46,586 nucleotides of DNA, from positions 1 to 46,586 of the IMG/VR virus record IMGVR_UViG_3300042340_000108. One strand, 5' to 3'. This DNA comes from a virus. The position numbers were made by a program, and so were the translations under genes. This document shows positions 16,881 through 41,452 of this stretch, piece by piece (position 1 is the stretch's first letter; every line of letters starts with the position of its first letter). The notes under the pieces are model-generated. The model was not told the origin of the DNA, searched no databases, and saw only the letters and a list, made by a program, of their open reading frames with translations.

Positions 16881-17822
16881 ATGAACTACAGGATCATACA
16901 GGGAGACTGCCGTGAAGCACTCAAGCAGATTGATGCAGACTCTGTTCATACTTGCGTTACCTCACCTCCGTACTTCGGGCTTCGTGACTACGGAGGCGGC
17001 GAAGGGGAGATTGGATCCGAGCAGGAAGTGGAGGAATATGTCAAGGCAATGGTTGATGTGTTCCGCGAAGTTCGCCGCTGTCTTCGTCCTGATGGCACTC
17101 TGTGGCTGAACCTTGGCGACTCGTACATGGCTCAGAAGAATGTCGCTCCTCCACCACAGACAATCGGCGGACAGCGCGACATGCCTTCATTCATTCCTGG
17201 CAACCGCAGGGAGCAGAAGGGTCTGAAGCACAAGGATCTCATCGGCATCCCTTGGCGGGTTGCATTTGCCCTGCAAGCGGATGGTTGGTGGCTGCGTCAG
17301 GACATCATCTGGTCAAAGCCAAATCCGATGCCCGAGTCCGTGGAGGATCGCTGTACAAAGTCGCATGAGTATATCTTTCTTCTCTCCAAGAAATCTCATT
17401 ACTACTACGACCATGTGGCGATCAAGGAAGATGCGGTGTACAAGGGACCGCAAAAGAGTGCGAAGAATATTGGAAATAAGACAAAAGGTGTAACTAGACC
17501 TGATGGCAAATCGATTGAATCCTTTCGCGCGGTAGTGGAGAAGAAAAACAAGCGTTCCGTTTGGACTGTGAATACCAAGGGATACAAGGGAGCGCATTTC
17601 GCAGTCTATCCGAAGAATCTTATTCTTCCTTGCATCCTTGCGGGATGCCCCGAGGGTGGAACCGTAATGGATCCATTCACGGGATCGGGAACCACAGCAG
17701 TCGTTGCTCTTGAGAACAACAGGAACTTTGTGGGAACGGAACTGAATCCCGAATACATTCAGTTGGCAGAGAACAGAATCAAAGAAGAGATACCGACAAC
17801 CCTTGCATCCGTGATGCATTGA
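16881..17822 (+). CDS. DNA methyltransferase, beta-class (N4-cytosine or N6-adenine)
   Basis: 313 residues. Catalytic motif IV, T-S-P-P-Y (27-31), is near the N-terminus, and the AdoMet-binding motif I, D-P-F-T-G-S-G-T-T with VGTELNPEYI, is at about 264-290. This IV-before-I order defines the beta class. S-P-P-Y is found in both m4C and m6A enzymes, so the base cannot be fixed. No restriction partner is adjacent, so it probably protects phage DNA or is regulatory. The promoter of the DNA polymerase lies within its last codons. Confidence 0.88.
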   Translation: MNYRIIQGDCREALKQIDADSVHTCVTSPPYFGLRDYGGGEGEIGSEQEVEEYVKAMVDVFREVRRCLRPDGTLWLNLGDSYMAQKNVAPPPQTIGGQRDMPSFIPGNRREQKGLKHKDLIGIPWRVAFALQADGWWLRQDIIWSKPNPMPESVEDRCTKSHEYIFLLSKKSHYYYDHVAIKEDAVYKGPQKSAKNIGNKTKGVTRPDGKSIESFRAVVEKKNKRSVWTVNTKGYKGAHFAVYPKNLILPCILAGCPEGGTVMDPFTGSGTTAVVALENNRNFVGTELNPEYIQLAENRIKEEIPTTLASVMH

Positions 17823-21102: not shown

Positions 21103-21414
21103 ATGAATGTGAAGTTGATCAGATTGGTTACGGGTGAAATGCTTCTCGCGGACACGACCATCCTGCATGAGCAGGGAATGTACACGCTGAAGAAGCCAGC
21201 ATGGATTGCACAGGTAAAGGCTGGAGAGTTCGCTCTTGTTCCTTGGCTTCCCCTTGCCAAGGATGATGTTGTCACCCTGTCGGCAGACAAGATCATCTAC
21301 TGTCTTGAGCCTGAGACTGGCATTGCCAACGAGTACAGCACGGGATTTGGATCGGGTCTAGTAATGCCGAACAGCGGTGTCAAGTCGGCAAACCTCAAAC
21401 TCTCAGGAGAGTAA
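21103..21414 (+). CDS. Sm-like (LSm/Hfq-fold) protein, short paralogue
   Basis: 103 residues. The pattern [15 protein letters not shown], then YTLKKPAWI, then [22 protein letters not shown] and a final Y matches the N-terminal domain of the 1872-2618 protein element by element. It lacks that protein's long acidic/basic tail. The single-domain size fits Sm-like ring subunits. It is the first gene behind the best early promoter in the window and is translationally coupled to uvsX. RNA binding is the expected but unproven role. Confidence 0.6.
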
Positions 21415-21415
21415 T

Positions 21416-22438
21416 GTGAACTTCCTAAAGCAGATCGTGAAGGAATCTGGCAACAAGTTTGCCAGTATCGTTGAGGATGGAATCGAAGGTGCAGATGTCG
21501 CGGGTTTCGTGGACACAGGCTCCTATGCTTTCAATGCGCTCCTATCGGGATCTTTGTACGGTGGAGTAGCGGACAACAAGATCATTGCCCTTGCGGGTGA
21601 ATCTGCCACGGGAAAGACCTATTTCACCCTTGGGATTGTCGCGCAGTTCCTCAAGAACAATCCCGAGGGCATGGTCCTCTACTTCGACTCCGAGCAAGCC
21701 GTGACCTCCGAGATGTTCGAAGGTCGTGGTGTGGATGCCAAGAGGGTGGCAGTCTTCCCTGTGGCAACCATTGAGGAGTTCAAGACTCAATGTGTGAACA
21801 TCGTTGACAAGATCCTTGAGATGGACGAGAGAGAGAGGAAGCCGATGATGATCGTCCTCGACTCGCTTGGAATGTTGTCCACCGAGAAGGAAGTCAACGA
21901 TTCAGCAGAGGGCAAGAATGTCCGTGACATGACAAGGGCGCAGGGAGTGAAGGCGACATTCCGAGTCCTCACCATGAAGTTGGGTAAGGCAAGGATTCCC
22001 CTTGTGATGACCAACCACACATACGATGTCGTGGGTGCATATGTCCCCACCAAGGAGATGGGTGGTGGAAGCGGTCTGAAGTATGCCGCTTCCACCATCG
22101 TCTACCTCTCCAAGAAGAAGGAGAAGAATGCAGAGGGTGATGTGGTGGGAAACATCATTCATTGCAAGTTGTACAAGTCCCGCCTCACCAAGGAGAATCA
22201 GCAGGTCGATGTTCAGTTGAACTACGACACTGGTCTGAACCGCTACTACGGGTTGACGGAGATCGCACTCAACAATGGGATCTTCAAGAAGGTATCGACT
22301 CGCATTGAACTTCCCGATGGAACCACGGCATTCGAGAAGAACATCAATGAGAATCCTCAGAAGTACTTCACTGATGAAGTGATGAAGCGTCTTGAGGAAG
22401 CAGTTGCCAAGGAGTTCAAGTACGGGGGTTCAACATGA
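21416..22438 (+). CDS. uvsX: UvsX recombinase (RecA/Rad51-like)
   Basis: Strand-exchange protein for recombination-dependent replication and repair. The start is GTG at 21416 with AGGAGA at 21405-21410; the ATG at 21414 reads straight into a stop. It has 340 residues (T4: 391). Walker A is G-E-S-A-T-G-K-T at 61-68, and the Walker B region is [11 protein letters not shown]. The loop [12 protein letters not shown] and the block [16 protein letters not shown] are characteristic of UvsX. It overlaps the nucleotidyltransferase gene by ATGA, physically joining the recombination operon to the glycan cassette. Confidence 0.95.
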
Positions 22439-23136
22439 AGGGTGTAATACTTGCTGGTGGCACAGGAACAAGACTGCATCCATTGACTATTTCAGTTAAC
22501 AAGCATCTCCTACCGGTTGGCGAAAAGCCAATGATCTTGCATTGCGTGGACAAACTTGTCGAGGCAGGAGTCACCGACATACTGATCGTGACCAATCCTG
22601 AGTGTGTTGGTGATTTCTCCATGCTTCTCAAGAGTGGCAAGCAGTTTGGATGCAACATCACCTACAGGACTCAGGACAAGCCAGATGGTGTTGCTGGTGC
22701 CTTGGGATGTGCGCGGGAGTTCGTCGGAAACGACAACTGTGCGGTTCTTCTTGGCGACAACATGTTCGATTTCAGTATCAAGGATGCTGTACAATCCTTC
22801 AAAGGTGGCTGTGGTATCTTCTTCAAGATGGTTCCAGACGGGCATCGTTATGGTATTGGAAGATTTAGAGATGGAAAACTAATTAGCATTGACGAGAAAC
22901 CAAGTGATGCAACAAAGGCTCATGCTTGCATTGGCATTTATTTGTTTGATCCCAATGCATTCAATATAGTTCGTACACTGGTACCATCGAATCGTGGTGA
23001 GTATGAGATATGCGGTGTGATCAACGATTACCTTAAACGTGGTGAGGTAAATCACACTTTCGTGGATGGTTGGTGGACCGATGCTGGTACGATGTCATCC
23101 TATAGGATGGCAAATGAAATGATGTATGCTGTTTGA
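22435..23136 (+). CDS. Sugar-phosphate nucleotidyltransferase (RmlA-like)
   Basis: Activates a sugar-1-phosphate to an NDP-sugar. It has 233 residues, shorter than RmlA (about 290). The signature [11 protein letters not shown] is at 8-18, with K24 and LLPVGEKPM following; VLLGDNMF supplies a metal-binding Asp, and DEKP is the substrate loop. The closest pattern is glucose-1-phosphate thymidylyltransferase, but base and sugar specificity cannot be read. It is the first gene of the glycan cassette and is coupled to uvsX, so it may be expressed from the upstream early promoter. Confidence 0.8.
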
Positions 23137-23152
23137 AACTGAAGGAAATCCA

Positions 23153-23809
23153 ATGAAACACAGACTAGCAGTAGTGGTTCCGTATCGTAATCGGGAGGAA
23201 CATCTTAGGGTGTTCCTCCCCTTTTTGAAAAAGTATCTCAGTGATCGTGGCATAGACAATACGATCTATATCATTGAGCAGGAGGAAGGCAAGCCGTTCA
23301 ACCGAGCAAAGTTGCTCAACATTGGCTTCCTTGAGGCATCGAAGGAATGCGACTATTTCGTTTTCCATGATGTCGATATGCTTCCTGAGAATGTCGGCTA
23401 TGAGTATCAGGAAAATCCCACGCATCTCGCCGCTGCTGCAAGTCAGTTCAACTACAGGCTTCCTTACGATGGCTACTTCGGTGGAGTCACGATGTTCAGC
23501 CGTGAGTCATTCCTCAAGGTGAATGGCTACAGCAACGAGTACTGGGGATGGGGTGCCGAGGACGATGATATTCTCTATCGCTGCCATCTTGCCGATCTGA
23601 AGGTGCAGAGACAGTCTCCTGGCGTACTCAGATCGCTCAATCACGACCGACAGATCGATCATGATGCCTACATGAAGAACATGGAGCGCATCCGCGAGAT
23701 GTGGTCGAAGAAGTTGGAATGGGAAAAAGAGGGACTGAACTCCTGCAAGTATTCTGTGATTTCGCGCGATGAAACAGCAGACAGAGAGTTGATCAAGGTT
23801 TCAATATGA
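23153..23809 (+). CDS. GT7-family beta-1,4-galactosyltransferase-like protein
   Basis: The start ATG at 23153 has AAGGA at 23142-23146; an ATG at 23126 overlaps the upstream gene without a ribosome site. It has 218 residues. The motif series follows the animal beta-4-galactosyltransferase catalytic domain: VPYRNREEHL (9-18), FNRAKLLNIGF (49-59), the metal-binding D-V-D (73-75), YFGGV (108-112), the hallmark WGWGAEDDD (131-139), a His in LNHDR, and GLNSCKY (194-200). No signal peptide or membrane anchor is present, so it acts in the cytoplasm. Donor is likely UDP-hexose. An intrinsic terminator lies in its first 75 bases. It is the first of a row of transferases. Confidence 0.88.
   Translation: MKHRLAVVVPYRNREEHLRVFLPFLKKYLSDRGIDNTIYIIEQEEGKPFNRAKLLNIGFLEASKECDYFVFHDVDMLPENVGYEYQENPTHLAAAASQFNYRLPYDGYFGGVTMFSRESFLKVNGYSNEYWGWGAEDDDILYRCHLADLKVQRQSPGVLRSLNHDRQIDHDAYMKNMERIREMWSKKLEWEKEGLNSCKYSVISRDETADRELIKVSI
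23193..23226 (+). terminator. Intrinsic terminator/attenuator inside the GT7 gene
   Basis: GGGAGGAACA (23193-23202) and TGTTCCTCCC (23211-23220) form a perfect 10-bp GC-rich stem with loop TCTTAGGG, followed by CTTTTT (23221-23226). It lies 40 bases into the coding frame. It would end transcripts coming from uvsX and the nucleotidyltransferase. When ribosomes translate the 5' end of the GT7 gene closely behind polymerase, the hairpin should be blocked, so it could act as an attenuator for the glycan cassette. Confidence 0.7.
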
Positions 23810-24714
23810 AGATTGCATACGTCAATACTTGGGGTGGATTCGAGGACAATGGATATCCAGAGCAATGTTTTTTTTCACGGATATTGCGTGAACTGAATCC
23901 ATCTTGTTCCATTGAAATGGGATACAAGAGTTCTGAAACCTATGATTTGGTCATCTCAATGTATAGACCAATACTTGGTAGTAAGTTTTATGCCAATATG
24001 GAACAGGTCGATGCAACCAGTATTTGTTTTACAGGAGAAAGTTATGATGTAGTTCGTACCACTCCAGGGTGTGATGCTTACATCGGGTTTGATTTAGCGG
24101 AAGATATATTGGATGATGTGCGGTATTTTAGATTTCCGCTATATGCGGCTTATCATATGGGAAATTTGGAGAAGTATGGCTGTACGTCATTTGAACAACT
24201 GCGTGATAAGTTCACTGGTGAAAAGCAAGCAAAGATATCGTCGCTAGTTTCCAACCCGAGCAATGGGCTTCGCACATCGCTGTTGGGTCATTTAGTTGCC
24301 AATGGGGTTTGTGTCTCTGGTGGCAGAGTGCATAACAATGCTGGCAATGTGGACGACAAACTTGACTTCACATCGAAATACGCCCTTGGAATGGCATTTG
24401 AAAATCTTTCTCGCAAGTCATACATCACGGAGAAAATATACGAGGTGCTTGCGGTAAATGCTGTTCCTGTCTATTGGGGTGCCATGAACATCTCGGAGGA
24501 ATTCAATCCAGATTCCTATGTCTTGTTCGACACGACAAACAACGACACCGCCCGTAAATCTTATGAAGACATACTTTCGTTGTTGACTGATCCGATTAGG
24601 CTGAGTAAAATGGTCAGTGTTGATCCAATCAGTGGATTTCGCTCTGAGAAGTACATCAGGAATGGAAAGCAGATGATGAAAGATTTCCTTATGCAGATGA
24701 TGGAGGTAAAGTAA
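23806..24714 (+). CDS. GT10-family alpha-1,3-fucosyltransferase-like protein
   Basis: Expected to transfer fucose from GDP-fucose. It has 302 residues. The alpha-1,3-fucosyltransferase motif is clear at about 191-225: K-Y-A-L-G-M-A-F-E-N, then SYITEKIYEVL, then AVPVYWGA. The N-terminal domain has FTGESYDVVR (75-84), the GT10 FTGE element. No membrane segment is present. The start overlaps the GT7 stop (ATGA). An uninterrupted run of eight T (23868-23875) at codons 21-23 could cause slippage. Together with the GT11-like and GDP-fucose-synthase-like genes it implies a fucosylated product. Confidence 0.88.
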   Translation: MKIAYVNTWGGFEDNGYPEQCFFSRILRELNPSCSIEMGYKSSETYDLVISMYRPILGSKFYANMEQVDATSICFTGESYDVVRTTPGCDAYIGFDLAEDILDDVRYFRFPLYAAYHMGNLEKYGCTSFEQLRDKFTGEKQAKISSLVSNPSNGLRTSLLGHLVANGVCVSGGRVHNNAGNVDDKLDFTSKYALGMAFENLSRKSYITEKIYEVLAVNAVPVYWGAMNISEEFNPDSYVLFDTTNNDTARKSYEDILSLLTDPIRLSKMVSVDPISGFRSEKYIRNGKQMMKDFLMQMMEVK

Positions 24715-25526
24715 TGGATATCATAGTTGGTTGCTTCAATCGATATTCTCCGTCAGCACTCAAACCTTGGGTGCAATCCATAGCCAAATCTGGATTCTCT
24801 GGACATAAGTTAGCCCTGATATATGGCAATGGGGAAGCCGAGAAATCATCAGCAGAGTACCTTACCAAGCATGGCTTTGAGGTGGTGGCAAAGGAATCGT
24901 TTTTAAAGAGCATAGTCGTTGATAGATTCCGCGATATCGCTTCATATCTTTCCTCCCATGTTGGTGTCTATGACAATGTCATATCAACTGATGTTGGTGA
25001 TGTGGTCTTTCAGACAAATCCTTCTGAGTTTCTGGCAACTCGCTTGATTGGTGACAAGCAAATTTTGGTGGGTTCTGAGTGTGTGAGATACAAGGATGAG
25101 ACATGGGGTAGGGAAAACATGAGGATGTCGTTCCCCAACTACTCATCCATGATGATGGACAAAGTGATATACAATGCTGGTACTGTGGCAGTCAAGTCAA
25201 CGACGGCTATCCAATTCTTCACTGATATTTTTAACCTGTCGATGGCTACCCCTGTATACAATCCAGACCAAGCGGCATTGAATCTGCTGATACAGACGAA
25301 ATATCACGACAATACATATTTCTCCTCTATGGAGGATGGGTGGAGCATTCAATGTGGTACTGTAACCGACCCAACACGCCTTGCTGAATATGGCTCACTG
25401 CTTGTGGAAAATGAACACAAGTTTGTGGATGGTGTTGGTTACAATCGGTTGGGAAACCGAGTGTGCCTTGTACATCAGTACAACCGAGTTCCCTTGCTCG
25501 TTGATGTGGTAAAGAATCTATATTGA
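24714..25526 (+). CDS. Putative glycosyltransferase (GT-A type)
   Basis: 270 residues. Likely metal/nucleotide-sugar residues are in STDVGDVVFQTNP (D93, D96), followed by YNAGTVAVK, YNPDQAALNLL and LVHQYNR near the C-terminus. This D-x-x-D-V-x-F-Q ... N-x-G ... D-Q-A ... H-Q-Y layout is typical of a little-studied transferase family found in eukaryotes and bacteria. It starts at the stop of the GT10 gene (TAATG). Sugar and acceptor are unknown. Confidence 0.65.
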   Translation: MDIIVGCFNRYSPSALKPWVQSIAKSGFSGHKLALIYGNGEAEKSSAEYLTKHGFEVVAKESFLKSIVVDRFRDIASYLSSHVGVYDNVISTDVGDVVFQTNPSEFLATRLIGDKQILVGSECVRYKDETWGRENMRMSFPNYSSMMMDKVIYNAGTVAVKSTTAIQFFTDIFNLSMATPVYNPDQAALNLLIQTKYHDNTYFSSMEDGWSIQCGTVTDPTRLAEYGSLLVENEHKFVDGVGYNRLGNRVCLVHQYNRVPLLVDVVKNLY

Positions 25527-25533
25527 GGATATC

Positions 25534-26319
25534 ATGAAAAGCATCTGCGTCACTGGTCTGTACAACATCGGCAGAGAAGCATATGATGGCAGGAGATTTG
25601 AAGACTACTTGCAGTGGTTTGAACAAATCCTGCGGCTGCAAACACCATTGGTGGTCTATGGTGAATCGAATTTGAAGCAATGGGTGATGGATCGTCGCAA
25701 TGGAAAGCCCACTTGGTTTGTGGAACAACCTCTTGCTGACATACCATGCTATCACTATAAGGATAGAGTTTCAAAGATCATTCATTCAGCCGAGTTCAAG
25801 ACAAGGGTGAACCAGCCCCATCGTCTTGAATGCAATCTTGCAGAATACACACTTGTGATCTACTCTAAGTTGCATTGGATGATTGATGCCGTGAAGAGAT
25901 ATGGTTCCGAGGATATGAGTGTATTTTGGGTCGATGCTGGTTGCAGCAGATTCATAGATCCTAGATTGTACTCTTTGGACTTTCCGAATCCATCCAAGGT
26001 TGAATCTCTTGGTGATAGATTCTTCATTCAGATGAGTAGAAACTATCCAGACTTGATTCATAACAAGACCCTGCCAGAAAACTATTTCTGGCTTGCAAAA
26101 CCATTGACTGCTGCGGGATTCATGGGTGGGAAGATTGCCACCGTCGAGAAAATCGCAGGTAAGGTTCGGTATGTGTTTGAGGAACAGATGCTGGCAAAGG
26201 GTGTCGTTGCTACGGAAGAGAATGCGATAGGTTACTTGATAAAAACAGATCCCGATCTTTTCATGCCAGTAATAAATACTAGTGGTCATCCTCTACAAAG
26301 CATCCATATGATGGGGTAA
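25534..26319 (+). CDS. HtrL/YibB (WlaTC) family protein, putative glycosyltransferase
   Basis: 261 residues. CVTGLYNIGREAYDGRRFEDYLQWFEQILRL at the N-terminus is the hallmark of the HtrL_YibB family encoded in lipopolysaccharide and capsule loci. Further support comes from PLVVYGESNLKQWV and FWVDAGCSRF, whose D-A-G-x-x-R-F is a probable donor-binding site. A GAGGAT ribosome site precedes the ATG. It sits between other transferases, consistent with adding one residue of the same glycan. Confidence 0.7.
   Translation: MKSICVTGLYNIGREAYDGRRFEDYLQWFEQILRLQTPLVVYGESNLKQWVMDRRNGKPTWFVEQPLADIPCYHYKDRVSKIIHSAEFKTRVNQPHRLECNLAEYTLVIYSKLHWMIDAVKRYGSEDMSVFWVDAGCSRFIDPRLYSLDFPNPSKVESLGDRFFIQMSRNYPDLIHNKTLPENYFWLAKPLTAAGFMGGKIATVEKIAGKVRYVFEEQMLAKGVVATEENAIGYLIKTDPDLFMPVINTSGHPLQSIHMMG
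26271..26278 (+). promoter_or_regulatory. Late promoter candidate (AATAAATA)
   Basis: ATAAATA at 26272-26278 lies in the last codons of the HtrL-type gene, 45 bases before the GTG at 26323. One of only two TAAATA-type sites seen inside the glycan cassette. Chance occurrence in AT-rich coding sequence is possible. Confidence 0.3.
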
Positions 26320-26322
26320 AAC

Positions 26323-27027
26323 GTGAAAAATCTAGTCATTGCTTTCAGTTCTTTTCTGACTAACAGGGATCTAAACCGCGAGCGGCTGACTGAGTATGCC
26401 ATCTGCTATGAGCAGTTGCATCGCGTGCTACCAGAAAACTTTTCATTGGTGTTCGTTGACAATACGATTGACAACAAGAACACATTGGCTACACTTAGCC
26501 CCAGACTGCACAATGCAGTCAACGACACGCCGTGTATATTCTACAACAACAATATAGGTGTCTCCAATAAAGGGCTTGGTGAACTGGACATGCTAATCAA
26601 AGCGCGTCATTTGCTGGACTTTTCAAAGTACGAAAAGATAGGTTACTTGACAGGGAGAAGATTTGTCACATGCCCATATGTGTTCTATAGAACCGAGCAT
26701 TGTAAAAAGAAAATGCTGGTTGGAAGTCAGCACTTTGTAAATGCGTTTACCGGTGCGGTCAATCCATTGACTCCAAATTGTTTTGAAGACATGTATTTTT
26801 CAATGGACACCGATATCATGGTTGAATATGTCAATTATGCAAAGAACAACCTGAATCCTCCTCCAGGAATTGGTTCCGAACAAATACTCTACTCATTTGT
26901 TCAGAACTCGGGACATGAATACGAAGAACTAAAACATCTTGGATTCATTCGTAACAATTGGGAAAGATGGGGTACAGCAGCCCCAAACCAATATTCGCGT
27001 GAGTTGAATAACTATATGGTGTGTTGA
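26323..27027 (+). CDS. Putative glycosyltransferase, unassigned family
   Basis: 234 residues starting with GTG. It is not clearly recognised. NNNIGVSNKGLGELDMLIKARHLLDFSKYEKIGYLTGRRF resembles the part of certain phage and bacterial transferases where a K-x-T-G-R-Y element follows the donor site. The C-terminal half (GIGSEQILYSFV, GFIRNNWERWG) also fits that type. Assignment rests largely on its place among transferases. It is AT-rich relative to the replication genes. Confidence 0.45.
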   Translation: MKNLVIAFSSFLTNRDLNRERLTEYAICYEQLHRVLPENFSLVFVDNTIDNKNTLATLSPRLHNAVNDTPCIFYNNNIGVSNKGLGELDMLIKARHLLDFSKYEKIGYLTGRRFVTCPYVFYRTEHCKKKMLVGSQHFVNAFTGAVNPLTPNCFEDMYFSMDTDIMVEYVNYAKNNLNPPPGIGSEQILYSFVQNSGHEYEELKHLGFIRNNWERWGTAAPNQYSRELNNYMVC

Positions 27028-27054
27028 TTTGTTCATTAACGATAAAAGGAATAT

Positions 27055-28164
27055 ATGATGAATATAAGAGACAATGTTCTTCCTTGTTTGCGACCTTTTG
27101 GTGGCGAGGAAGAAGTACAGGCAGTTCGCGAAGTCATTGAAAGCGGCTGGTGGGGTAAAGGATCTAAAGTCGCTGAACTAGAAAAGAAGTTTGCGGAAAT
27201 GGTGGGTGCAAAATATGCAGTCGCCGTGACCAGTGCTACACATGGTCAAGATCTCGTTGTCAAGGCAATGAATCTAACCAACTGCGACATCATAAACCCA
27301 ACCATTTCATTTCTGACAACTGCTGTTGTTCCTCTGTGGAACAATTGCACTAGCAACATAGTCGATGTCGATAGGGCTAACCTCAATATCTGCCCCGACG
27401 ATGTGAAGAAGAACTTGAAGCCCAACACAAAGGCGATTATTGCAGTCAACATGGCAGGTGTTCCCGCACCCATAGATGAGATTAGAAGTTACTATGACGG
27501 TGTAATCATCGAAGACTGCGCCCATAGTTGCTATACTCCTGGTGCTGGAACCAAGGGTGATGTCGCTGTCTGGTCGTTTCAGGCAGTAAAGACAATGCCT
27601 TGCGGCGATGGTGGAATGATCACGACAAACGACAAGGCTTTGTATGAGAAACTCGTTCCAATGACCTGGCTTGGTATCAGCAGCACTCACTCTAGAGTTA
27701 GAGATGGTCTGACGGGAAAGCCTGGTTATTCTTGGGATTACGAGGTTGAACTCATGGGGACAAAGTCCTACATGATAGACATCAATGCTGCCATAGCACT
27801 TGTACAGATGCAAAAGTTGCCGAGGCATCTTGAGCGTCGTAGACACATACAGCAGCGTTACAATAGCGAACTGAGTGGGTTCATTCAAACCCCTCCTTGG
27901 TCTGATACGGTTCAATACTATTGCGCCAGAGTCGATCCATCCATTCGTGGAGAACTTATTGCCTATCTTGCAGACAAGAAGATTCATACGTCAGTTCACT
28001 TCAAGCCACTTCACAAGTATACCGTGACCAAGCAGAATCGCGAGTATCCTGTTGCTGACACAGAGTGGCTAAAGTTGATTTCTCTTCCTGTGCATCCAGC
28101 CATGACCGATCAGGACATAGACTATGTGATATATTGGGTAAAAAGGTTCTTTCAAGAGAGGTAA
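27055..28164 (+). CDS. DegT/DnrJ/EryC1-type sugar aminotransferase
   Basis: PLP enzyme that makes an amino sugar from a 4- or 3-keto NDP-sugar (or a related transfer). It has 369 residues, the usual length. The PLP-binding Asp is D154 in IIEDCAHSCY. The Schiff-base lysine is K179 in the block WSFQAVKTMPCGDGGM, matching S-F-x-x-x-K-x-x-x-x-G-x-G-G. The N-terminal RPFGGEEEVQAVREVIESGWWGKGSKVAELEKKF is typical of the family. The substrate ketosugar would have to come from a dehydratase not found here, possibly from the host. Start is 27055 or 27058 (ATGATG) after AAAGGA. Confidence 0.88.
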   Translation: MMNIRDNVLPCLRPFGGEEEVQAVREVIESGWWGKGSKVAELEKKFAEMVGAKYAVAVTSATHGQDLVVKAMNLTNCDIINPTISFLTTAVVPLWNNCTSNIVDVDRANLNICPDDVKKNLKPNTKAIIAVNMAGVPAPIDEIRSYYDGVIIEDCAHSCYTPGAGTKGDVAVWSFQAVKTMPCGDGGMITTNDKALYEKLVPMTWLGISSTHSRVRDGLTGKPGYSWDYEVELMGTKSYMIDINAAIALVQMQKLPRHLERRRHIQQRYNSELSGFIQTPPWSDTVQYYCARVDPSIRGELIAYLADKKIHTSVHFKPLHKYTVTKQNREYPVADTEWLKLISLPVHPAMTDQDIDYVIYWVKRFFQER

Positions 28165-28166
28165 TC

Positions 28167-28244
28167 ATGAGTGGATTGTCTTTGATACATTCGTTTGGTC
28201 GTTCTCATGGTGGAGCATATCATCACTTCTACAAGATAGGCTGA
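28167..28244 (+). CDS. Possible 25-residue peptide or remnant
   Basis: ATG at 28167 three bases after the aminotransferase stop, following AGAGG, reads MSGLSLIHSFGRSHGGAYHH and on to a TGA at 28242. It fills most of the 110-base gap before the fucosyltransferase-like gene. It could be a real small peptide, a relic or chance. Confidence 0.2.
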   Translation: MSGLSLIHSFGRSHGGAYHHFYKIG

Positions 28245-28274
28245 AGCATATAATGCGGATTGTGGAGTCACACC

Positions 28275-28982
28275 ATGATACAGGTGAAATACAATGGAAC
28301 GCATGGAAACAAGATGTGGGAGTATGCAGTCGCCAGACTGTATGCTGAAACTCATGGTCATGCATTTTATGCTGATGCAATCGATGGTCTGCCGAATACA
28401 GCACAGATTGTGGATGGCATTGGTCGCGTTGGGAATGTCAGCCATCTCCGTGGTCATAAATTTGACTTCAATGTTTGCAATGGCGACGTTATATTTGATG
28501 GATTCTTTCAACGATATGAATACTTGAAGGGCAATAGGCAAAAACTTCTCAACTGGTTTAAGTCCGACATAGACTCTCCCTGCTCTGTTGAAGAAGATGA
28601 CTTGGTATTGTCCATTCGTCGTGGTTGGAATGGATATCCAACGCATTTATGCCCACCTTCGTCATTTTACACCGCATTGATCAAAAAGGTCAATCCGAGA
28701 AGAATATATCTCTGCACGGATTCGTTTGATGATCAGTACTTTTCTTTCTTAAAAGACTTCAACGACGTTGTCTTCTACAGGGAAAACTATTTGATGCAGT
28801 TTGAACTGATACGCAAGGCAAAAACTCTTGTGCTTTCTCCGAGTACTTTTTGCTGGTGGGCTGCATACCTTGGAAATGCCAACAAGATTTTCTATCCTTG
28901 GTATTCTGATATGATTCCAACCCATCATGGTGGAAACTGGTGGGTTGATGATGACTTTAGATACGAAAGGGTCGATGTGTGA
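28275..28982 (+). CDS. GT11-like (alpha-1,2-fucosyltransferase-type) protein
   Basis: The start ATG at 28275 has TGGAG upstream. It has 235 residues. N-terminal NGTHGNKMWEYAVARLYA matches the G-L-G-N-Q-M-F-Q-Y-A-x-A-R start of GT11. SIRRGWNGYP (113-122) aligns with the GDP-fucose-binding H-x-R-R-G-D, but the leading His is Ser and the Asp is Trp. LVLSPSTFCWWAAYLG (185-200) matches the S-x-S-x-F-S-W-W-x-A-x-L motif III. The altered motif I means donor or linkage may differ from classic alpha-1,2-fucosyltransferases. It overlaps the GDP-fucose-synthase-like gene. Confidence 0.7.
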   Translation: MIQVKYNGTHGNKMWEYAVARLYAETHGHAFYADAIDGLPNTAQIVDGIGRVGNVSHLRGHKFDFNVCNGDVIFDGFFQRYEYLKGNRQKLLNWFKSDIDSPCSVEEDDLVLSIRRGWNGYPTHLCPPSSFYTALIKKVNPRRIYLCTDSFDDQYFSFLKDFNDVVFYRENYLMQFELIRKAKTLVLSPSTFCWWAAYLGNANKIFYPWYSDMIPTHHGGNWWVDDDFRYERVDV

Positions 28983-29857
28983 AGACAATAGTTACTGGCT
29001 CAAGTGGCTTCATAGGGAGAAACCTATCAGCCGATTATAGAATTGGGCGACATGTAGATTTCACGGATTTCGAGTCCGTTTACACTGCTGTTTCTCCGCT
29101 ATCTGATGTTGGGCGGATTATTCACTGTGCGGGAAAGCATGGATCATCGATAGAGATGACTCGCGATCATGCTTCTTATATCAGGACAAACTTTCTCTGT
29201 GATGAGAATATACTGAGAACCGCTGCGAAACTTTCCATTCCTACCATTGCCATGATTTCCTCCATTACCTGTCTACCATCCAACAACAAGGATGTGTTTG
29301 ATGAGGAGGATCTATTCATGGGCAATGTCAACGACATGGTATTGGGTTATGCTGTCAGCAAAAGAATGACGATAAATCTATGCAGAGCATACTACAAGGA
29401 TTTTGGCATCAATGCTGTGCCAATCGTTCTTGGTAACTGCTATGGTAGATATGGAAAGTTTCACAAGGATTCGACTATCATTCACAAGTTGATATACGAC
29501 ATAGATGTAGCCATGACACGCAAGGAAGATGTACATCTATCTGGAGATGGTAATGATGTCAGGACATTCTTGTTTGCTGACGATCTTAAAGAAATATTGA
29601 CTGAAATCCTGTCGCAGCAACAAGAAGGACATCCAGTGATTGTTTCCTCTCCGCATCAAGTTAGCATAAGAGATGTGGTGCATCTCATATCTAAACTGAT
29701 GGGATATCGTGGAAACATAATATTTGACGGCAAGACCGCATCCCCTCACAAGAAAAAGGTAGCAAAATCTATTGTGGTGGATATGAATAGATTTCAATAC
29801 ACCGCGTTGGAAGAGGGAATCGAAAAGACCTTAAGATACTTTTATCAAGGAAAATAA
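28979..29857 (+). CDS. NAD(P)-dependent nucleotide-sugar reductase, GDP-fucose synthase-like
   Basis: Short-chain dehydrogenase of the extended (epimerase/dehydratase) type. It has 292 residues, starting with GTG that overlaps the upstream stop. The Rossmann motif is G7-S-S-G10-F-I-G13. The catalytic Ser lies in ISSITCLP (94-95), and Y124-A-V-S-K128 is the Y-x-x-x-K pair. NCYGRYGKF (153-161) resembles the N-L-Y-G-P-x-x-x-F of GDP-fucose synthase (WcaG/Fcl, about 320 residues). It would make the donor for the two fucosyltransferase-like enzymes, if GDP-mannose dehydratase comes from the host or from outside the window. Confidence 0.7.
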   Translation: MKTIVTGSSGFIGRNLSADYRIGRHVDFTDFESVYTAVSPLSDVGRIIHCAGKHGSSIEMTRDHASYIRTNFLCDENILRTAAKLSIPTIAMISSITCLPSNNKDVFDEEDLFMGNVNDMVLGYAVSKRMTINLCRAYYKDFGINAVPIVLGNCYGRYGKFHKDSTIIHKLIYDIDVAMTRKEDVHLSGDGNDVRTFLFADDLKEILTEILSQQQEGHPVIVSSPHQVSIRDVVHLISKLMGYRGNIIFDGKTASPHKKKVAKSIVVDMNRFQYTALEEGIEKTLRYFYQGK

Positions 29858-29858
29858 T

Positions 29859-30416
29859 GTGGAACATATTTACACAAATAATTCTTTTGGTGAGAACTGG
29901 TTTGACTATGCCCCCTTATACGAGCGATTCATAGCAGAAGTTCCTGATAAGGCTCATATCGTAGAAGTTGGTTGCTGGATGGGCAAGAGTGTCGCATTCC
30001 TTGGGGTTGAGGCATTGAACTCTGGAAAAACGATAGCCATAGACGCAGTTGATACCTGGCTTGGATCTCCAGAACACCAATATATCTTACAAAGACATGG
30101 TGCTGACTATCTGTATGAGACATTCATATCGAATATCGCTCCGCTGAAACATATTGTTAATCCGATGAGAATGACATCGTTGGATGCAAGTATACTATAT
30201 GAAAACGATTCATTAGATGTAGTGTTCATCGATGCAGCACACGACTACGATTCCGTCAAGGCTGATATAGCGGCTTGGCTACCAAAGGTAAAATCTGGTG
30301 GTTATCTTGCTGGACATGACTATAATCAATGTTGGTCTGGAGTTATTGCCGCAGTGAACGAGTCTTTGAACATACAAGAAGTTGTCTGTGGTTGTTGGGT
30401 ATACAAGAAGCCCTAA
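29859..30416 (+). CDS. Class I SAM-dependent methyltransferase (Methyltransf_24 type)
   Basis: 185 residues, GTG start after AAGGA. AdoMet-binding motif I is VEVGCWMGKSVAFLG (35-49). An acidic AIDAVDTWLG follows, then FIDAAHDYDSVKADIAAWLPKVKSGGYLAGHDY, the standard end of the Methyltransf_24 family found in glycan clusters. It likely O-methylates a sugar of the cassette product. The exact position is unknown. Confidence 0.78.
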   Translation: MEHIYTNNSFGENWFDYAPLYERFIAEVPDKAHIVEVGCWMGKSVAFLGVEALNSGKTIAIDAVDTWLGSPEHQYILQRHGADYLYETFISNIAPLKHIVNPMRMTSLDASILYENDSLDVVFIDAAHDYDSVKADIAAWLPKVKSGGYLAGHDYNQCWSGVIAAVNESLNIQEVVCGCWVYKKP

Positions 30417-30426
30417 AGGAAACAAT

Positions 30427-31281
30427 ATGCACGATATGATCTATAGAATTGATGGAACTGTAAACTATGACGATAATTCGTGTTTTTTTCATTCAAGCAC
30501 CTATCCGACATTTCAAGACGAACTACTAAAATTCAAGAGCCTTCTGTCTGATTTGGTGGGTGGATCTGAGGCAAAGACATTCTATAAGTTTGGGGATGGG
30601 GACTATTTTTTCTTAAACAAACTTGAAGTTGGTAGTGCTTCACCTGGTAAACGTGCTTTATCTCGCGGTTATGGTCAGATCAAACATGAAGAGTTTGTCG
30701 ATGGTGTCTGCAAGAATGACTTCATAACATGTGAAATCTATCCCGAGAATAGAAACTATTTTAGAAGCCTGTATCCCAATCAGCCGATAGCGTTTCCATC
30801 AGAATTCTGTTATGGGCTTGTATCGAACAAGTGGATATTGAGGCAGTTTTCTGGCAAGATCGGGCTGATAGGGGCAGATGCCAAGATAGAACTGATCAAG
30901 AACCTGATGTCACATGCGGAGTATCGGGATTACCTTGGTATTGACTCATTTACAGATTATTTGAAGATTCCGCAAAAGTTTGCTTGCGATGATATCGATG
31001 CCACGGAAATGCTGATTGCAGAACAGTTGAAGACTTCTACGGCGAGCATTTTCTTGGTTGGAATAGGACATGTCAAGTCGGCTTTGCTTCATCGGTTGAA
31101 GAAGTACAGAAAAGCCATTTTTCTTGATGTTGGCAGTTCTATTGATGCCTTAGCCGGAATCATAGATCACAAGCGACCATATTTTGGTGGGTGGACTAAC
31201 TACAGAGTTGGAAATTTTGACTACGGATCATTGGATATTTTGCAGTATGATATATGGGGAACACCTCACAAAAAACTATGA
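30427..31281 (+). CDS. Putative GT-D-type glycosyltransferase (DUF1792-like)
   Basis: The start ATG at 30427 follows AAAGGAAAC. It has 284 residues. F-Y-K-F-G-D-G-D (52-59) resembles the R-F-G-D-G-E metal/donor motif of GT-D fold transferases. The later SIFLVGIGHVKSALLHRLKKYRKAIFLDVGSSIDAL resembles their second nucleotide-binding half and final D-x-G. A run of seven T at 30483-30489 (about codon 19-21) may allow slippage. Family placement is by motif only. Confidence 0.5.
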   Translation: MHDMIYRIDGTVNYDDNSCFFHSSTYPTFQDELLKFKSLLSDLVGGSEAKTFYKFGDGDYFFLNKLEVGSASPGKRALSRGYGQIKHEEFVDGVCKNDFITCEIYPENRNYFRSLYPNQPIAFPSEFCYGLVSNKWILRQFSGKIGLIGADAKIELIKNLMSHAEYRDYLGIDSFTDYLKIPQKFACDDIDATEMLIAEQLKTSTASIFLVGIGHVKSALLHRLKKYRKAIFLDVGSSIDALAGIIDHKRPYFGGWTNYRVGNFDYGSLDILQYDIWGTPHKKL

Positions 31282-31291
31282 GGCTAAATCC

Positions 31292-31516
31292 ATGACACTT
31301 GTGATAACAGTCGCAGATACGCGGGTTGGAGACATTGGTTGCTCGTTCGAGGAAGGCATCGGCTTGTATGAATTGTTTCAGTATGACAAGCAAGAAGGGA
31401 AGCAGTTTGTTGTTAGTTCATTGCTAAAGGATGATCTAACAGAAGAAGCACCGTCTAATGGTTTGATATCCTCATTCTCCTCCGAACCACACAAATACAA
31501 GTACATTTTCCGATGA
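31292..31516 (+). CDS. Small hypothetical protein
   Basis: 74 residues from the ATG at 31292 (MTLVITVADTRVGDIGCSFEEG). Not recognised. The C-terminus overlaps the cupin gene start by ATGA, which supports it being translated. No ribosome site is obvious before the start. It contains no membrane segment or cysteine motif. Confidence 0.35.
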   Translation: MTLVITVADTRVGDIGCSFEEGIGLYELFQYDKQEGKQFVVSSLLKDDLTEEAPSNGLISSFSSEPHKYKYIFR

Positions 31517-31830
31517 TCATACGAAACATCAACGAGTTTAATCGTGGTTGGTTTATTGGAAACTTTCCAACAGCAATTCTTCAAACCGATCAATTTGAGG
31601 TTGCCCTCATATCATGTGAGGTTGGAATACATCCAACCCATTATCATTTGTTAGCAACCGAATACAATGTCCTCATAGAAGGAAAACTTCGCATTGGTGA
31701 TAGGATACTGACTGCTGGTGATGTCTATGTCATAGATAAATGTGAAGTGACGGAACAGGAATTTCTTGAGCCTTCAAAGGTTCTGTGTGTGAAAACGCCA
31801 TCTGTAATTGGCGACAAATATCTGATCTAA
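31513..31830 (+). CDS. Cupin-domain protein
   Basis: 105 residues, a single cupin barrel. Motif 1 has H40-P-T-H43-Y-H45 with E50 following, then YNVLIEGKLRIGDRILTAGDVYVI, the standard cupin strand order. Single cupins in sugar clusters are often ketoisomerases or epimerases (FdtA, RmlC types) or metal-binding helpers. Here it could isomerise a keto sugar for the aminotransferase, but this is inference. Confidence 0.65.
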   Translation: MIIRNINEFNRGWFIGNFPTAILQTDQFEVALISCEVGIHPTHYHLLATEYNVLIEGKLRIGDRILTAGDVYVIDKCEVTEQEFLEPSKVLCVKTPSVIGDKYLI

Positions 31831-31848
31831 AATATAATGGAGTAAATA

Positions 31849-32466
31849 ATGTATTCGCAAAACAATGAAGATGACATCTTAACGCAGTTTTTTGCAAACA
31901 CCCTTAATGGCTCTTTTCTTGAGATTGGGGCATTCCATCCAAAGAATCTATCAAACACCCGCGCCTTGGTCGAAAAGGGTTGGGGTGGGGTTATGGTTGA
32001 CATGTCTCCATACAGCCTTGTGGATCTTGTCGATGAGTACAAGACAAACGACAAGATATTGATCGTCGGTGCAGCAGTAACCTTGGAAAAAAGCCCTCCC
32101 TTGAAGTCGTGGCTCGTTCCCAAGGATGATAAGACTGATGGGGCATTGACGACAACCGAAGCATGGCACAAGGATAGGTGGTCTGGCTATCTGAACCATC
32201 TTGGAAGAAAGCATGTTCCATACGTTGCGTCTACCATTTCATTGGAAGAACTTTATGCATTCCTACCACCAAAGTTGCACTTTGTATCAATTGATGTTGA
32301 GGGAACTAGTTTCGATCTTTCCATGAAGTTTGATTTTGATCGGTTTGATGTTGATGCCATATGCATAGAACACGATGGAAAGTACCGTGAGGTCTACGCT
32401 AGATTCGAAGGCAAGTATAATGCGGTTGCTTTGAATGCAGAAAACATCTTGTTGGTGAAAAAATGA
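31849..32466 (+). CDS. FkbM-family methyltransferase (1)
   Basis: 205 residues. Motif I region FLEIGAFHPKNLSNTRALVEKGWGGVMVDMSP (23-54) is the classic FkbM opening, and LHFVSIDVEGTSFDL is its second conserved block (I-D-V-E-G). GGAG lies six bases before the ATG. It probably methylates a sugar hydroxyl. It overlaps the second FkbM gene by ATGA. Confidence 0.85.
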   Translation: MYSQNNEDDILTQFFANTLNGSFLEIGAFHPKNLSNTRALVEKGWGGVMVDMSPYSLVDLVDEYKTNDKILIVGAAVTLEKSPPLKSWLVPKDDKTDGALTTTEAWHKDRWSGYLNHLGRKHVPYVASTISLEELYAFLPPKLHFVSIDVEGTSFDLSMKFDFDRFDVDAICIEHDGKYREVYARFEGKYNAVALNAENILLVKK

Positions 32467-33107
32467 AAACACTTATCTATGTCGGCGCGCATGTTGGTGG
32501 TGGACTATCAACTTATGTAAATCAATATGATAGAATCTTTGCATTTGAAGCAAATCCGAGGTTCGTGGATACGCTTCGACACAGGTTTTCTGCTTGTGCT
32601 AATGTTGAAGTGATAAATGCTGCTGTATTTGACAGGCACGAAGAGGTCATAAAGTTCATGATCTCGAAGAACAACGGTGACTCAAGTTCAATATTGCGTC
32701 CAAACAAGGACAACTCACTGCATGATGTAATACTTGGGTCAGAAGAAGTATTTGTGAAGACTGTGTCTATGGATCGTTTCTTGGAGGAAAGAAAGATAGA
32801 TTACGTTGATTCGTACATCAGCGACCTTCAAGGATGTGATTTCATGGTTTTGAGAACCATGAAAAATCTAATCGATCAAAAGAAAATTGGCACCATACAA
32901 TGTGAAGTCGGGAGGAGAAATACAGTTCCAATCTACAACAATCCCGATACCACTACGGCAAATACTGAAGAGAACTTTGATTCTTTATTGTCTAAAACTT
33001 ACGACAGAATATCAACAGGGTGGGGTAGTTTGCAAGATGGCGTATTTGCCGAAGTTCCCCCCACTTGGTCTGAATGGGATATAAAGTGGAGAGCGAAAAC
33101 CTCTTGA
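32463..33107 (+). CDS. FkbM-family methyltransferase (2)
   Basis: 214 residues, last gene of the glycan cassette. Motif I is IYVGAHVGGGLSTYVNQYDRIFAFEANP (5-32). VSMDRFLEERKIDYVDSYISDLQGCDFMVL carries the second block with D-L-Q-G in place of D-V-E-G. It differs strongly from the preceding FkbM protein, so this is not a recent duplication. Two FkbM enzymes plus a third methyltransferase imply a multiply methylated glycan. Confidence 0.78.
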   Translation: MKTLIYVGAHVGGGLSTYVNQYDRIFAFEANPRFVDTLRHRFSACANVEVINAAVFDRHEEVIKFMISKNNGDSSSILRPNKDNSLHDVILGSEEVFVKTVSMDRFLEERKIDYVDSYISDLQGCDFMVLRTMKNLIDQKKIGTIQCEVGRRNTVPIYNNPDTTTANTEENFDSLLSKTYDRISTGWGSLQDGVFAEVPPTWSEWDIKWRAKTS

Positions 33108-33131
33108 CTCACTCTCTTCCCGCGATATACT
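33104..33131 (+). promoter_or_regulatory. Sigma70-like promoter for gp41, leaderless geometry
   Basis: -35 TTGACT (33104-33109), 16-bp spacer, -10 TATACT (33126-33131), then seven bases to the ATG at 33139, with no ribosome site. The -35 overlaps the stop codon of the preceding methyltransferase gene, marking a switch from glycan cassette to replication genes. Confidence 0.72.
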
Positions 33132-33138
33132 TACCTAC

Positions 33139-34533
33139 ATGATTGAACTGACCATCCTCCGCGAGTTGACTCGCAACGATCAGTACTTCCGAAAAGTCCT
33201 CCCCTTTCTCAAGGAGGACTATTTCGCTGATAGGGACACCAAGATTTTGTTCAGGATGATCTCGGAGTACCTTGAGAAGTACAACTCCATGCCCACCAAG
33301 GGTGCATTGGAGATCATGCTCGACGCAAAGACGAATGTTGATCCTGAGACGATGAAGCAGACGCTTGCCACTCTTGGCAAGGTGTTCACCGACGAGAAGG
33401 CACCCGACACCGAATGGCTTGTCCATCAGACGGAGAAGTTCTGCAAGGACAAGGCACTCTACAATGCCGTCCTAGAATCGATTCACATCATAGATGGCAA
33501 GGCAAAGGACAAGGATGTCGGTTCGCTGCCGAAACTCCTCTCCGATGCCCTGGCTGTCTCCTTTGACACGCACATCGGTCACGACTATATCGAAGACTAT
33601 GGCAAGCGGTATGAGTTCTACCATCGGGTCGAGAACAAGATCCCATTCGATATTGAGCAGTTCAACATCATCACCAATGGCGGTGTTCCCCGCAAGACGC
33701 TCAACATCATCATGGCAGGAACGGGTGTTGGCAAGTCTCTGTTCATGTGCCATCATGCATCTGCTTGCCTCACTCAGAACCTTGATGTCCTCTACATCAC
33801 CTGCGAGATGGCAGAGGAACGAATCGCGGAACGCATTGATGCCAACCTGATGGATCTTCCGATGGAGGATCTCAAGAAACTTCCAGCAGATCTGTACAAC
33901 AAGAAGATGCAGAAGATCCGAAAGCAGTACACGGGTAGGCTGATCATCAAGGAGTATCCGACTGCCACGGCAAATGCGAATCATTTCCGTGCATTGCTGA
34001 ATGACCTGAAGACCAAGAAGAACTTCGAACCCGACATCATCTTCATCGACTACCTGAATATCTGTGCTTCTGCTCGCCTCAAGATGAATGCATCCGTCAA
34101 CTCCTATACATTCATTAAGGCAATCGCGGAGGAACTCCGTGGGCTTGCAGTCGAGTTCGATGTCCCGATCTTCTCAGCGACTCAGGTGAACCGAGGTGGC
34201 TTCAACAACACCGATGTCGGGCTTGAGAACACATCGGAATCATTCGGTCTTCCTGCCACGGCGGATCTCATGTTTGCCCTGATCGGCACGGAGGAACTTG
34301 AGGAGCAGGGGCAGATCCTCGTAAAGCAGTTGAAGAACAGATACAACGATGTCTCCCGCAGCAAGAAGTTCGTGGTGGGAATCGACAGGTCAAGGATGAA
34401 GTTGCTTGATGTCGATAGCCCAATCGTTGGAGACGAGGGTTTTGGGAAAAGTGAAGATCCTGCAAAGAAGCAGAACGGAAGCAACAAGTCTGAGGGTGGT
34501 TCGGATAAATACACGGATTGGAGTTTTGACTGA
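33139..34533 (+). CDS. 41: Replicative DNA helicase gp41 (DnaB-like)
   Basis: Hexameric 5'-3' helicase of the primosome. It has 464 residues (T4: 475). Walker A is G-T-G-V-G-K-S with K199. Walker B is IIFIDYLNICAS, and the SATQVNRGGF and KNRYND blocks are the DnaB-family loops near the C-terminus. The N-terminal domain has the LLREL/FLKEDYF region typical of gp41. A leaderless early transcript is likely. It ends in TGATG, coupling it to primase. The acidic tail ends DKYTDWSFD. Confidence 0.95.
   Translation: MIELTILRELTRNDQYFRKVLPFLKEDYFADRDTKILFRMISEYLEKYNSMPTKGALEIMLDAKTNVDPETMKQTLATLGKVFTDEKAPDTEWLVHQTEKFCKDKALYNAVLESIHIIDGKAKDKDVGSLPKLLSDALAVSFDTHIGHDYIEDYGKRYEFYHRVENKIPFDIEQFNIITNGGVPRKTLNIIMAGTGVGKSLFMCHHASACLTQNLDVLYITCEMAEERIAERIDANLMDLPMEDLKKLPADLYNKKMQKIRKQYTGRLIIKEYPTATANANHFRALLNDLKTKKNFEPDIIFIDYLNICASARLKMNASVNSYTFIKAIAEELRGLAVEFDVPIFSATQVNRGGFNNTDVGLENTSESFGLPATADLMFALIGTEELEEQGQILVKQLKNRYNDVSRSKKFVVGIDRSRMKLLDVDSPIVGDEGFGKSEDPAKKQNGSNKSEGGSDKYTDWSFD
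34504..34511 (+). promoter_or_regulatory. Late promoter candidate (GATAAATA)
   Basis: ATAAATA at 34505-34511 lies in the last codons of gp41, 22 bases before the primase ATG. Its core is identical to the site at 40791. Late expression of primase is not expected, so the site may be fortuitous. Confidence 0.3.
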
Positions 34534-36482: not shown

Positions 36483-36506
36483 CATGTGGAAGGAACTCCG
36501 TATAGG

Positions 36507-39631: not shown

Positions 39632-39639
39632 CAATTACC

Positions 39640-39741
39640 ACTACAAGACAAAAAATCGAAGGATACCTTGCACACAAATGGGGACTGCAAGCAAATCTTC
39701 CAGTAGGACATCCATATAAGGATGTAGCACCAACAGTATAA
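39640..39741 (+). pseudogene. Relic of a LamG-type fibre C-terminus
   Basis: Immediately after the 38690 gene's stop, one frame (39640-39741) reads TTRQKIEGYLAHKWGLQANL and then PVGHPYKDVAPTV with a stop. It matches the last ~32 residues of the intact fibre at 40695-40790 (TRQKIEGYLAHKWGREGDLP...HPYKSISP). No start codon or ribosome site serves it. It is the leftover end of a domain replaced in the upstream gene. Confidence 0.8.
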
Positions 39742-39746
39742 CCCCC

Positions 39747-40790: not shown

Positions 40791-40797
40791 TAAATAA
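40790..40797 (+). promoter_or_regulatory. Late promoter (GATAAATA)
   Basis: ATAAATA at 40791-40797 directly follows the fibre stop codon and lies 15 bases before the ATG at 40813, with GGAGA between. Good late-promoter position for the virion genes that follow. Confidence 0.65.
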
Positions 40798-40812
40798 TAA
40801 ACGGAGACATTC

Positions 40813-41133: not shown

Positions 41134-41435
41134 TGGCACTACAACAAATTATTCAACATCCTACAGGAACCTATTCGCAATATTGGAAGATTCGTACTCT
41201 GAATCTGAATCATACAGCCAAGACAGGTACAGTTATTTTGGATGGATATGTTTCTGAACAAGCAAGAATAGACAACAAGATTCCTCTTGATGAAAGAACC
41301 ATCAATGTGTTTGATTTTGATGTGTGGTTTGCACCTGCTGTCATTGATGCTGCGGGAATGAATCAGGTAAAATCTGCATATACCTTTACAAAGTCCATTC
41401 CGAACGGTGAGTTTGTTGGATCGACAGACGTTTGA
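41133..41435 (+). CDS. Small hypothetical virion-type protein
   Basis: 100 residues beginning MALQQIIQHPTGTYSQYWKI. Mostly beta-strand character (TGTVILDGYVSEQARIDNK, VFDFDVWFAPAVID). No recognised family. Coupled to the preceding gene (TAATG) and placed among fibre genes, so a virion role is likely. Confidence 0.5.
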   Translation: MALQQIIQHPTGTYSQYWKIRTLNLNHTAKTGTVILDGYVSEQARIDNKIPLDERTINVFDFDVWFAPAVIDAAGMNQVKSAYTFTKSIPNGEFVGSTDV

Positions 41436-41452
41436 TTGTTAAGTAACCAAAA

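Follow-up and report, generated by a model that had tools for sequence, protein, structure and literature searches.

The analyzed stretch of DNA (hereafter the window, or W in comparisons) is the whole 46,586-base IMG/VR virus contig IMGVR_UViG_3300042340_000108. Its central part carries a 10.7-kb block of sugar genes (positions 22435-33107; hereafter the island), which occupies exactly the interval between the replication genes uvsX (ending at 22438) and gp41 (starting at 33139). Within the island 15 open reading frames (ORFs A-O; Table 1) were distinguished, all located on the plus strand, separated by intergenic gaps of -35 to +110 nt, and nearly all of them sugar genes. A block of about 10.7 kb of such genes at this site had been proposed earlier from the sequence of the window (the original prediction), and its coordinates proved exact. 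The GC (guanine plus cytosine) content of the island is 43%, compared with 48.6% upstream of it and 50.4% in the gp41-thyX region. The window contains a set of T4-type replication genes (uvsX, gp41 and genes for DNA polymerase B, a UvsW-like helicase, gp46/47-like SbcC/SbcD proteins and a clamp loader), and by this criterion the phage is T4-like. A search for cultured phages sharing DNA with the window gave none. The closest gp41 protein of a cultured phage is that of Methylophilales phage Melnitz (Kyanoviridae; 59% identity), in which uvsX and gp41 are separated by just one 2-oxoglutarate (2OG)-Fe oxygenase gene and one small ORF.

Table 1. Features of the window at and around the uvsX-gp41 interval (E values and bit scores as obtained in family and structure searches; SDR, short-chain dehydrogenase/reductase).
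Feature	Coordinates	Strand	Basis
uvsX (RecA-like), 5' border of the island	21377..22438	+	PF00154 7.8e-18
A, glucose-1-phosphate thymidylyltransferase-like (RmlA)	22435..23136	+	PF00483 5.6e-48; PDB 3hl3 2e-68
B, GT7, beta-1,4-galactosyltransferase-like	23126..23809	+	PF13733/PF02709; PDB beta4GalT1 8.8e-47
C, GT10, alpha-1,3/4-fucosyltransferase-like	23806..24714	+	PF00852; H. pylori FucT 2.7e-16
D, probable GT-A glycosyltransferase (Nucleotid_trans-like)	24714..25526	+	PF03407 0.0012, 19.3 bits (cut-off 22)
E, HtrL/YibB family, presumed glycosyltransferase	25534..26319	+	PF09612 9.1e-15
F, GT-A-like by inspection only	26323..27027	+	no family match
G, DegT/ArnB/PseC-type sugar aminotransferase	27055..28164	+	PF01041 7.7e-77; PDB ArnB-type 8sng 1.4e-50
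H, GT11-like, distant	28275..28982	+	PF01531 below cut-off; aligned with cyanophage alpha-1,2-fucosyltransferases
I, Fcl-related SDR reductase	28979..29857	+	NF047922 below cut-off; no Fcl epimerase Cys/His
J, Methyltransf_24 methyltransferase	29859..30416	+	PF13578 5.3e-18
K, probable glycosyltransferase, weak WecG/TagA-like fold	30427..31281	+	PF03808 0.0023, 18.2 bits (cut-off 27.4)
L, small ORF	31247..31516	+	no family match
M, cupin-like small protein	31513..31830	+	phrog_24762 (unknown function) 3.8e-26; cupins weak
N, FkbM-type methyltransferase, sub-threshold	31849..32466	+	PF05050 0.00063, 20.3 bits (cut-off 22.7)
O, FkbM-type methyltransferase	32463..33107	+	PF05050 1.4e-9
Predicted sigma70-like promoter, TTGACT-16-TATACT	33104..33131	+	3' end 7 nt upstream of the gp41 ATG; recurrent at the 3' border of islands
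gp41 (DnaB-like helicase), 3' border of the island	33139..34533	+	PF03796 3.5e-19
Collagen-like tail fibre, candidate acceptor	36486..38690	+	84 overlapping G-X-Y matches; PHROG tail fibre; PF01391
GT2-type transferase outside the island	14059..15336		phrog_13126 ("beta-1,4-glycosyltransferase") 8.6e-25
N6/N4 DNA methylase	16881..17819		PF01555 2.7e-53

Relatives of the locus were retrieved by scanning viral contigs for GT7, gp41 and uvsX, and their comparison pointed to an exchangeable island: the same site, filled with different blocks of sugar genes. The distance between uvsX and gp41 is bimodal, i.e., 0-1.8 kb in 86 loci and 6.2-14.4 kb in 17 contigs, with no value in between. The long intervals hold sugar genes, amounting (with the window counted in) to 244 ORFs in 98 families. 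Families found in the other islands include UDP-galactopyranose mutase, GT15 (KRE2-like), GT2, NTP-transferase, methyltransferases, HAD phosphatase, GMD and Fcl relatives. Two modules recur directly downstream of uvsX: (i) GT7-GT10, often followed by a homologue of D, and (ii) phage glycosyltransferase c3 (phrog_14945) with Fcl, GMD and GT2 behind it; of these three, G012 has GT2 only. GT15, a family of KRE2-type mannosyltransferases best known from fungi, reaches 1.9e-37 in the phage islands (L251:5613-6452), and the same gene family is present in L245, L244, L246 and L253.

Within the main clade of island-bearing phages the UvsX proteins are 93-98% and the gp41 proteins 78-94% identical, and most island genes lack a counterpart (median Jaccard index of island gene families, 0.10). 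Between the window and a 156-kb relative (G001), most of the replication genes upstream of the island show 50-91% identity. The nearest core relative of the window, G009, shares 91.4% DNA identity over uvsX and gp41, yet carries the other 5' module; DNA homology between the two ends at W position 22431, with seven bases of uvsX still to come, becomes solid again from position 33071, and is limited inside the island to one 164-nt match (74%). Four other phages (G004, G005, G013 and G014) are 96.7-97.9% identical in uvsX and gp41, and their islands are partly or wholly different (Jaccard index 0.00-0.56); for G013 and G004 (97.7%), no shared DNA was detectable over the 10-12 kb of the island. 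On the uvsX+gp41 tree (14 tips, some branches weakly supported) a minimum of five switches of the 5' module is needed. Taken together, these sequence comparisons suggest that the uvsX-gp41 site is an exchangeable glycan-synthesis locus, at which whole blocks are swapped between near-identical phages. The phenomenon is real, non-random and larger than originally described; the island system was not visible from the window, because relatives were needed to see it. Downstream of the collagen-like fibre gene the window contains a second hypervariable block (38678-46586), for most genes of which no counterpart exists in relatives that have nearly identical core genes.

The 3' border of the island is marked by a predicted promoter. 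The sequence TTGAC-N-TATACT immediately precedes gp41 in 13 of 16 distinct loci with an island, and with one mismatch in a further one, vs. none of 51 loci without (Fisher p 2.2e-11, kinship not corrected for); it was also found outside the main clade (L253, L255 and L092). A simple consensus promoter scan was not significant by itself (32 sites vs. 27.6 expected), so the weight of the prediction rests on positional conservation. Since no obvious ribosome-binding site is present between the promoter-like sequence and the gp41 ATG (33104-33139) and the promoter ends so close to this codon, the helicase message of island-bearing phages is suggested to be near-leaderless. A promoter in this position would keep the helicase gene expressed, whichever island lies upstream.

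The island genes assigned with confidence are A (RmlA-type), B, C, E (YibB), G, J and O, while H, N, D, K and the cupin-like M are weaker calls. The assignments of B to GT7 and of C to GT10 (H. pylori FucT type), as originally predicted, are secure at the level of sequence families. ORF B is far above the cut-offs of both GT7 domains (PF13733, 1.6e-26, 92.9 bits, cut-off 27; PF02709, 5.2e-26, 90.5 bits, cut-off 23), and its best relative of solved structure is beta4GalT1. It carries HDVD (the DxD metal motif) and WGWGAEDDD (the WGWGxEDDD catalytic motif), and these DVD/WGWGxEDDD residues are mostly invariant across seven viral homologues. In beta4GalT1 a Tyr residue selects UDP-Gal over UDP-GalNAc; the Tyr aligned with it in B predicts UDP-Gal as the donor. 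ORF C exceeds the GT10 cut-off (PF00852, 1.8e-10, 41.2 bits vs. 23.9), and its FucT motif (FEN...YxTEK...vPvYWG) is kept in 11 island homologues.

No GT7 match was found in 50,697 phage records, although uncultured viral contigs carry the family often (139 loci). Where a uvsX island has GT7, a GT10 gene mostly follows directly (14 loci, at most 300 nt apart), and no neighboring GT10 was observed for GT7 outside uvsX islands in the viral loci examined. The GT10 relatives came from synteny, since a pattern scan of viral contigs for them gave none. Many other viral loci (L020-L080) have as many as three GT7 genes, in other contexts and with no GT10. A restricted-pattern search of bacterial genomes yielded just two GT7 matches. 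A contig of a Halieaceae metagenome-assembled genome carries, among bacterial-looking genes, a GT7 gene (L259:7983-8648) whose product is 56% identical to the phage protein; GT7 is thus present in marine bacteria too.

As GT7 and GT10 are genuine and adjacent in most GT7 islands, a core of the type Gal(beta1-4)[Fuc(alpha1-3)] makes biochemical sense. The original prediction went further, recognizing also a GT11 and a GDP-fucose-synthase-like reductase and hence the gene set of Lewis x/y structures. True antigens of this type (Gal beta1-4 [Fuc alpha1-3] GlcNAc, with or without Fuc alpha1-2) would agree with the two neighboring transferases and with the predicted UDP-Gal donor, but appear improbable in view of the other genes. 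The score of H (PF01531, 20.2-20.6 bits) is under the curated GT11 cut-off of 23.9; its motif residues are SIRRGW, with the His and Asp of the HxRRGD-type motif replaced, and STFCWW in place of STFSWW; its single-sequence structure model (predicted local distance difference test, pLDDT, 35) is too poor for use. Neither a GT11-like gene in the other GT7-GT10 islands nor, by a pattern scan, relatives of H in viral contigs were found, and the GT11 call could not be upheld. Since H can nevertheless be aligned with two proteins of cyanophages that bear the annotation alpha-1,2-fucosyltransferase, it is named here a distant GT11 relative and no more. In Fcl proteins a Ser-Tyr-Lys set is catalytic and a Cys and a His serve epimerization. 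ORF I keeps the catalytic Ser, Tyr and Lys, has Thr at the positions of the epimerase Cys and His, and reaches 102 bits with NF047922 (Fcl equivalog cut-off, 500) and 79 bits with human GDP-fucose synthase. By these sequence criteria it is a distant Fcl homologue that fails as a GDP-L-fucose synthase, and the earlier description, correct as to the family, was overstated. Fcl homologues of other islands, including those of the second 5' module, are likewise under the cut-off (184-194 bits), but have the catalytic Cys and His. A search for GMD in the window gave none; proteins passing TIGR01472 were found in other islands only. With neither GMD nor a competent Fcl in the window, GDP-fucose would be supplied by the host. 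The sub-threshold GT11, the failing Fcl and the missing GMD reduce the Lewis x/y reading to a guess on linkage and acceptor, and the aminotransferase and methyltransferases of the island are foreign to Lewis structures.

Among the remaining ORFs, the predicted nucleotidyltransferase (A) and aminotransferase (G) have strong family matches, A being under the RmlA equivalog cut-offs. Two of the three methyltransferases proposed (J and O) are secure, and the third (N), a sub-threshold FkbM protein, has copies 85-86% identical in the islands of G001 and G002. ORF D has homologues directly after GT10 in four other islands. No match to F was found in Pfam, NCBIfam or PHROG. The structure model of K is of moderate quality (pLDDT 77.5), and its best PDB matches are TagA/TarA (Foldseek TagA, E 2.6e-3, probability 1.00). 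ORF L is perhaps not a gene, and M is cupin-like as predicted, but its best Pfam (cupin) match reaches only E 0.056. Outside the island, the N6/N4 DNA methylase gene adjoins the DNA polymerase gene.

The content of the islands bears on where their product may be placed. None of the 232 island ORFs of at least 100 amino acids (17 islands, screened by hydropathy only) encodes a convincing membrane protein, and no flippase, polymerase, ligase, phosphoglycosyltransferase or membrane transferase was seen in the 17 islands. Export or polymerization on a lipid carrier is therefore not provided by the islands, from which we infer a cytoplasmic acceptor. Outside its island, the 156-kb relative has a few hydropathy matches (one with eight hydrophobic stretches), counted over real and antisense frames together, and the statement that carrier genes are absent is therefore restricted to the islands.

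The main competing explanation is that soluble island enzymes extend or cap lipid-linked intermediates of host lipopolysaccharide (LPS), O-antigen or capsule at the inner membrane, so that competing phages no longer bind. This is the usual reading of sugar islands of pelagimyophages (PMC7029224) and cyanophages (PMC9602691). The YibB-family and WecG/TagA-like proteins resemble products of LPS and wall-polymer genes, the site among replication genes fits early expression, and island variation could track host serotypes. We regard this explanation as possible but rather doubtful: an island that can reach 15 or more genes is large for the capping of an existing host polymer, and, together with the lack of carrier genes, this size favors a virion protein over host LPS.

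A second alternative is transfer of the sugars to phage DNA, as in T4 glucosylation or glycan hypermodification. In T4 the beta-glucosyltransferase gene adjoins uvsX, and a study by Pyle et al. (2024; cited in PMC12619734) reportedly describes the decoration of phage DNA with diverse glycans by phage-encoded transferases. However, the thymidylate-synthase/dCMP-hydroxymethylase family (PF00303) was absent from 11 phage contigs, including the 156-kb one, although these contigs may be incomplete, and T4-type DNA glucosylation was rejected as a candidate. To our knowledge, GT7, GT10 and FkbM methyltransferases otherwise act on protein, lipid or small-molecule glycans. Modification of DNA is thus very unlikely, and it is the missing pyrimidine hydroxymethylase family that favors a virion protein over DNA.

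We therefore prefer to view the island as a fixed-site exchangeable glycan-synthesis locus whose likeliest product, in a reading that we consider about evenly balanced between right and wrong, is a short glycan that would be assembled on a virion protein within the cytoplasm and diversified by cassette exchange. What can be read directly from the sequences is a site that is either near-empty or filled with 6-14 kb of sugar genes, islands that differ between near-identical phages, and a promoter-like sequence at the 3' border that goes with the presence of an island. In the proposed pathway, the product of A and G would be an amino-deoxy sugar nucleotide. A short chain would then be built in the cytoplasm, one sugar at each step, by the soluble transferases GT7 (using UDP-Gal), GT10 (using host GDP-fucose) and afterwards D, E, F, H and K, and J, N and O would methylate it. 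The chain would be attached to a protein of the virion surface, with a tail fibre or another exposed protein as the most plausible acceptor, in which case swapping of islands would change the surface type of the phage.

The window indeed contains the predicted collagen-like fibre gene, and in those closest island phages for which this region is available such a gene begins about 2 kb after gp41. Homologues of the GT2-type transferase encoded outside the island occur in both island and island-free phages, with strong matches in 8 of 15 collagen-bearing contigs vs. none of 10 others; being confined to collagen-bearing contigs (n = 25), it is a candidate initiating enzyme. Several observations weigh against a virion glycan, and against the fibre in particular. 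Collagen genes are present in 8 of 9 island contigs but also in 7 of 16 island-free ones, and a search for a 2OG oxygenase (PF13640) able to hydroxylate collagen gave none. For these reasons the fibre was dropped as a proven acceptor, and it may be seen as an attractive but unproven target. Furthermore, no glycan acceptor emerged from the comparisons, the neighbors of the island are replication genes and not late structural genes, and the islands do not all share any one transferase, so that none of their genes stands out as a dedicated initiating enzyme. In addition, membrane proteins were screened for by a crude hydropathy measure, most of the relatives are known from fragments, and the main clade represents a single lineage.

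Several known systems resemble the island in part. Bacterial O-antigen and capsule loci also consist of exchangeable sugar genes between conserved flanks, but have Wzx, Wzy, a ligase and an initiating phosphoglycosyltransferase, none of which was seen in the phage islands. Chloroviruses and mimiviruses encode their own enzymes for the glycans of capsids or fibres, among them fucosyltransferases, methyltransferases and those that make nucleotide sugars; these, however, are eukaryotic viruses with unrelated genomes. In mycobacteriophages we know of few transferases, of no large nucleotide-sugar pathway and of no GT7 or GT10. They nevertheless provide a precedent, since these phages encode glycosyltransferases and their capsid proteins are reported to bear covalently bound glycans (Freeman et al. 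2023, via PMC11256854). The cultured T4-like cyanophages S-SKS1, S-SRM01 and S-SCSM1 carry blocks with GMD, GDP-fucose synthase and/or fucosyltransferases (alpha-1,4; alpha-1,2; NodZ), an FkbM methyltransferase and other transferases (PMC9602691). GMD-like genes occur in 83 phage records. In contrast to the island, the sugar blocks of S-SKS1 and S-SRM01 have neither uvsX nor gp41 beside them in the stretches concerned; no GT7 accompanies such clusters among the 50,697 phage records; and, unlike for the uvsX-gp41 islands, the passages on them describe neither single-site cassette exchange nor a border promoter. The host recognition cluster of pelagimyophages is a hypervariable region of T4-like genomes with many glycosyltransferases (PMC7029224). 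Unlike the island, it belongs to the structural region, where it is flanked by VrlC and gp14 and takes in the fibres. Its divergence is described as gradual and not as complete replacement, whereas uvsX-gp41 islands swap as a block.

The view that the gene combination is undescribed for a phage therefore has to be narrowed, as fucose clusters exist in the three cultured cyanophages. What looks undescribed is GT7 in a phage sugar-island setting and the uvsX-gp41 island system, of which no description was found in the open-licence literature. It is tentatively conceivable, with some doubt, that the site is the phage counterpart of a bacterial serotype locus, at which complete virion-glycan programs (two or more basic types with open-ended decoration) would be exchanged as blocks, insulated by the promoter, with a change in virion recognition.

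Phage sugar genes are usually listed singly, as auxiliary genes acting on the host surface. A fixed, bimodal, block-exchanged island whose borders are conserved offers a controlled comparison of glycosyltransferase targets, in which near-identical natural phages differ by one 10-kb block. If the glycans are indeed placed on virions, the islands would represent a serotype-like system in phages and, in addition, a source of soluble GT7 and GT10 enzymes.

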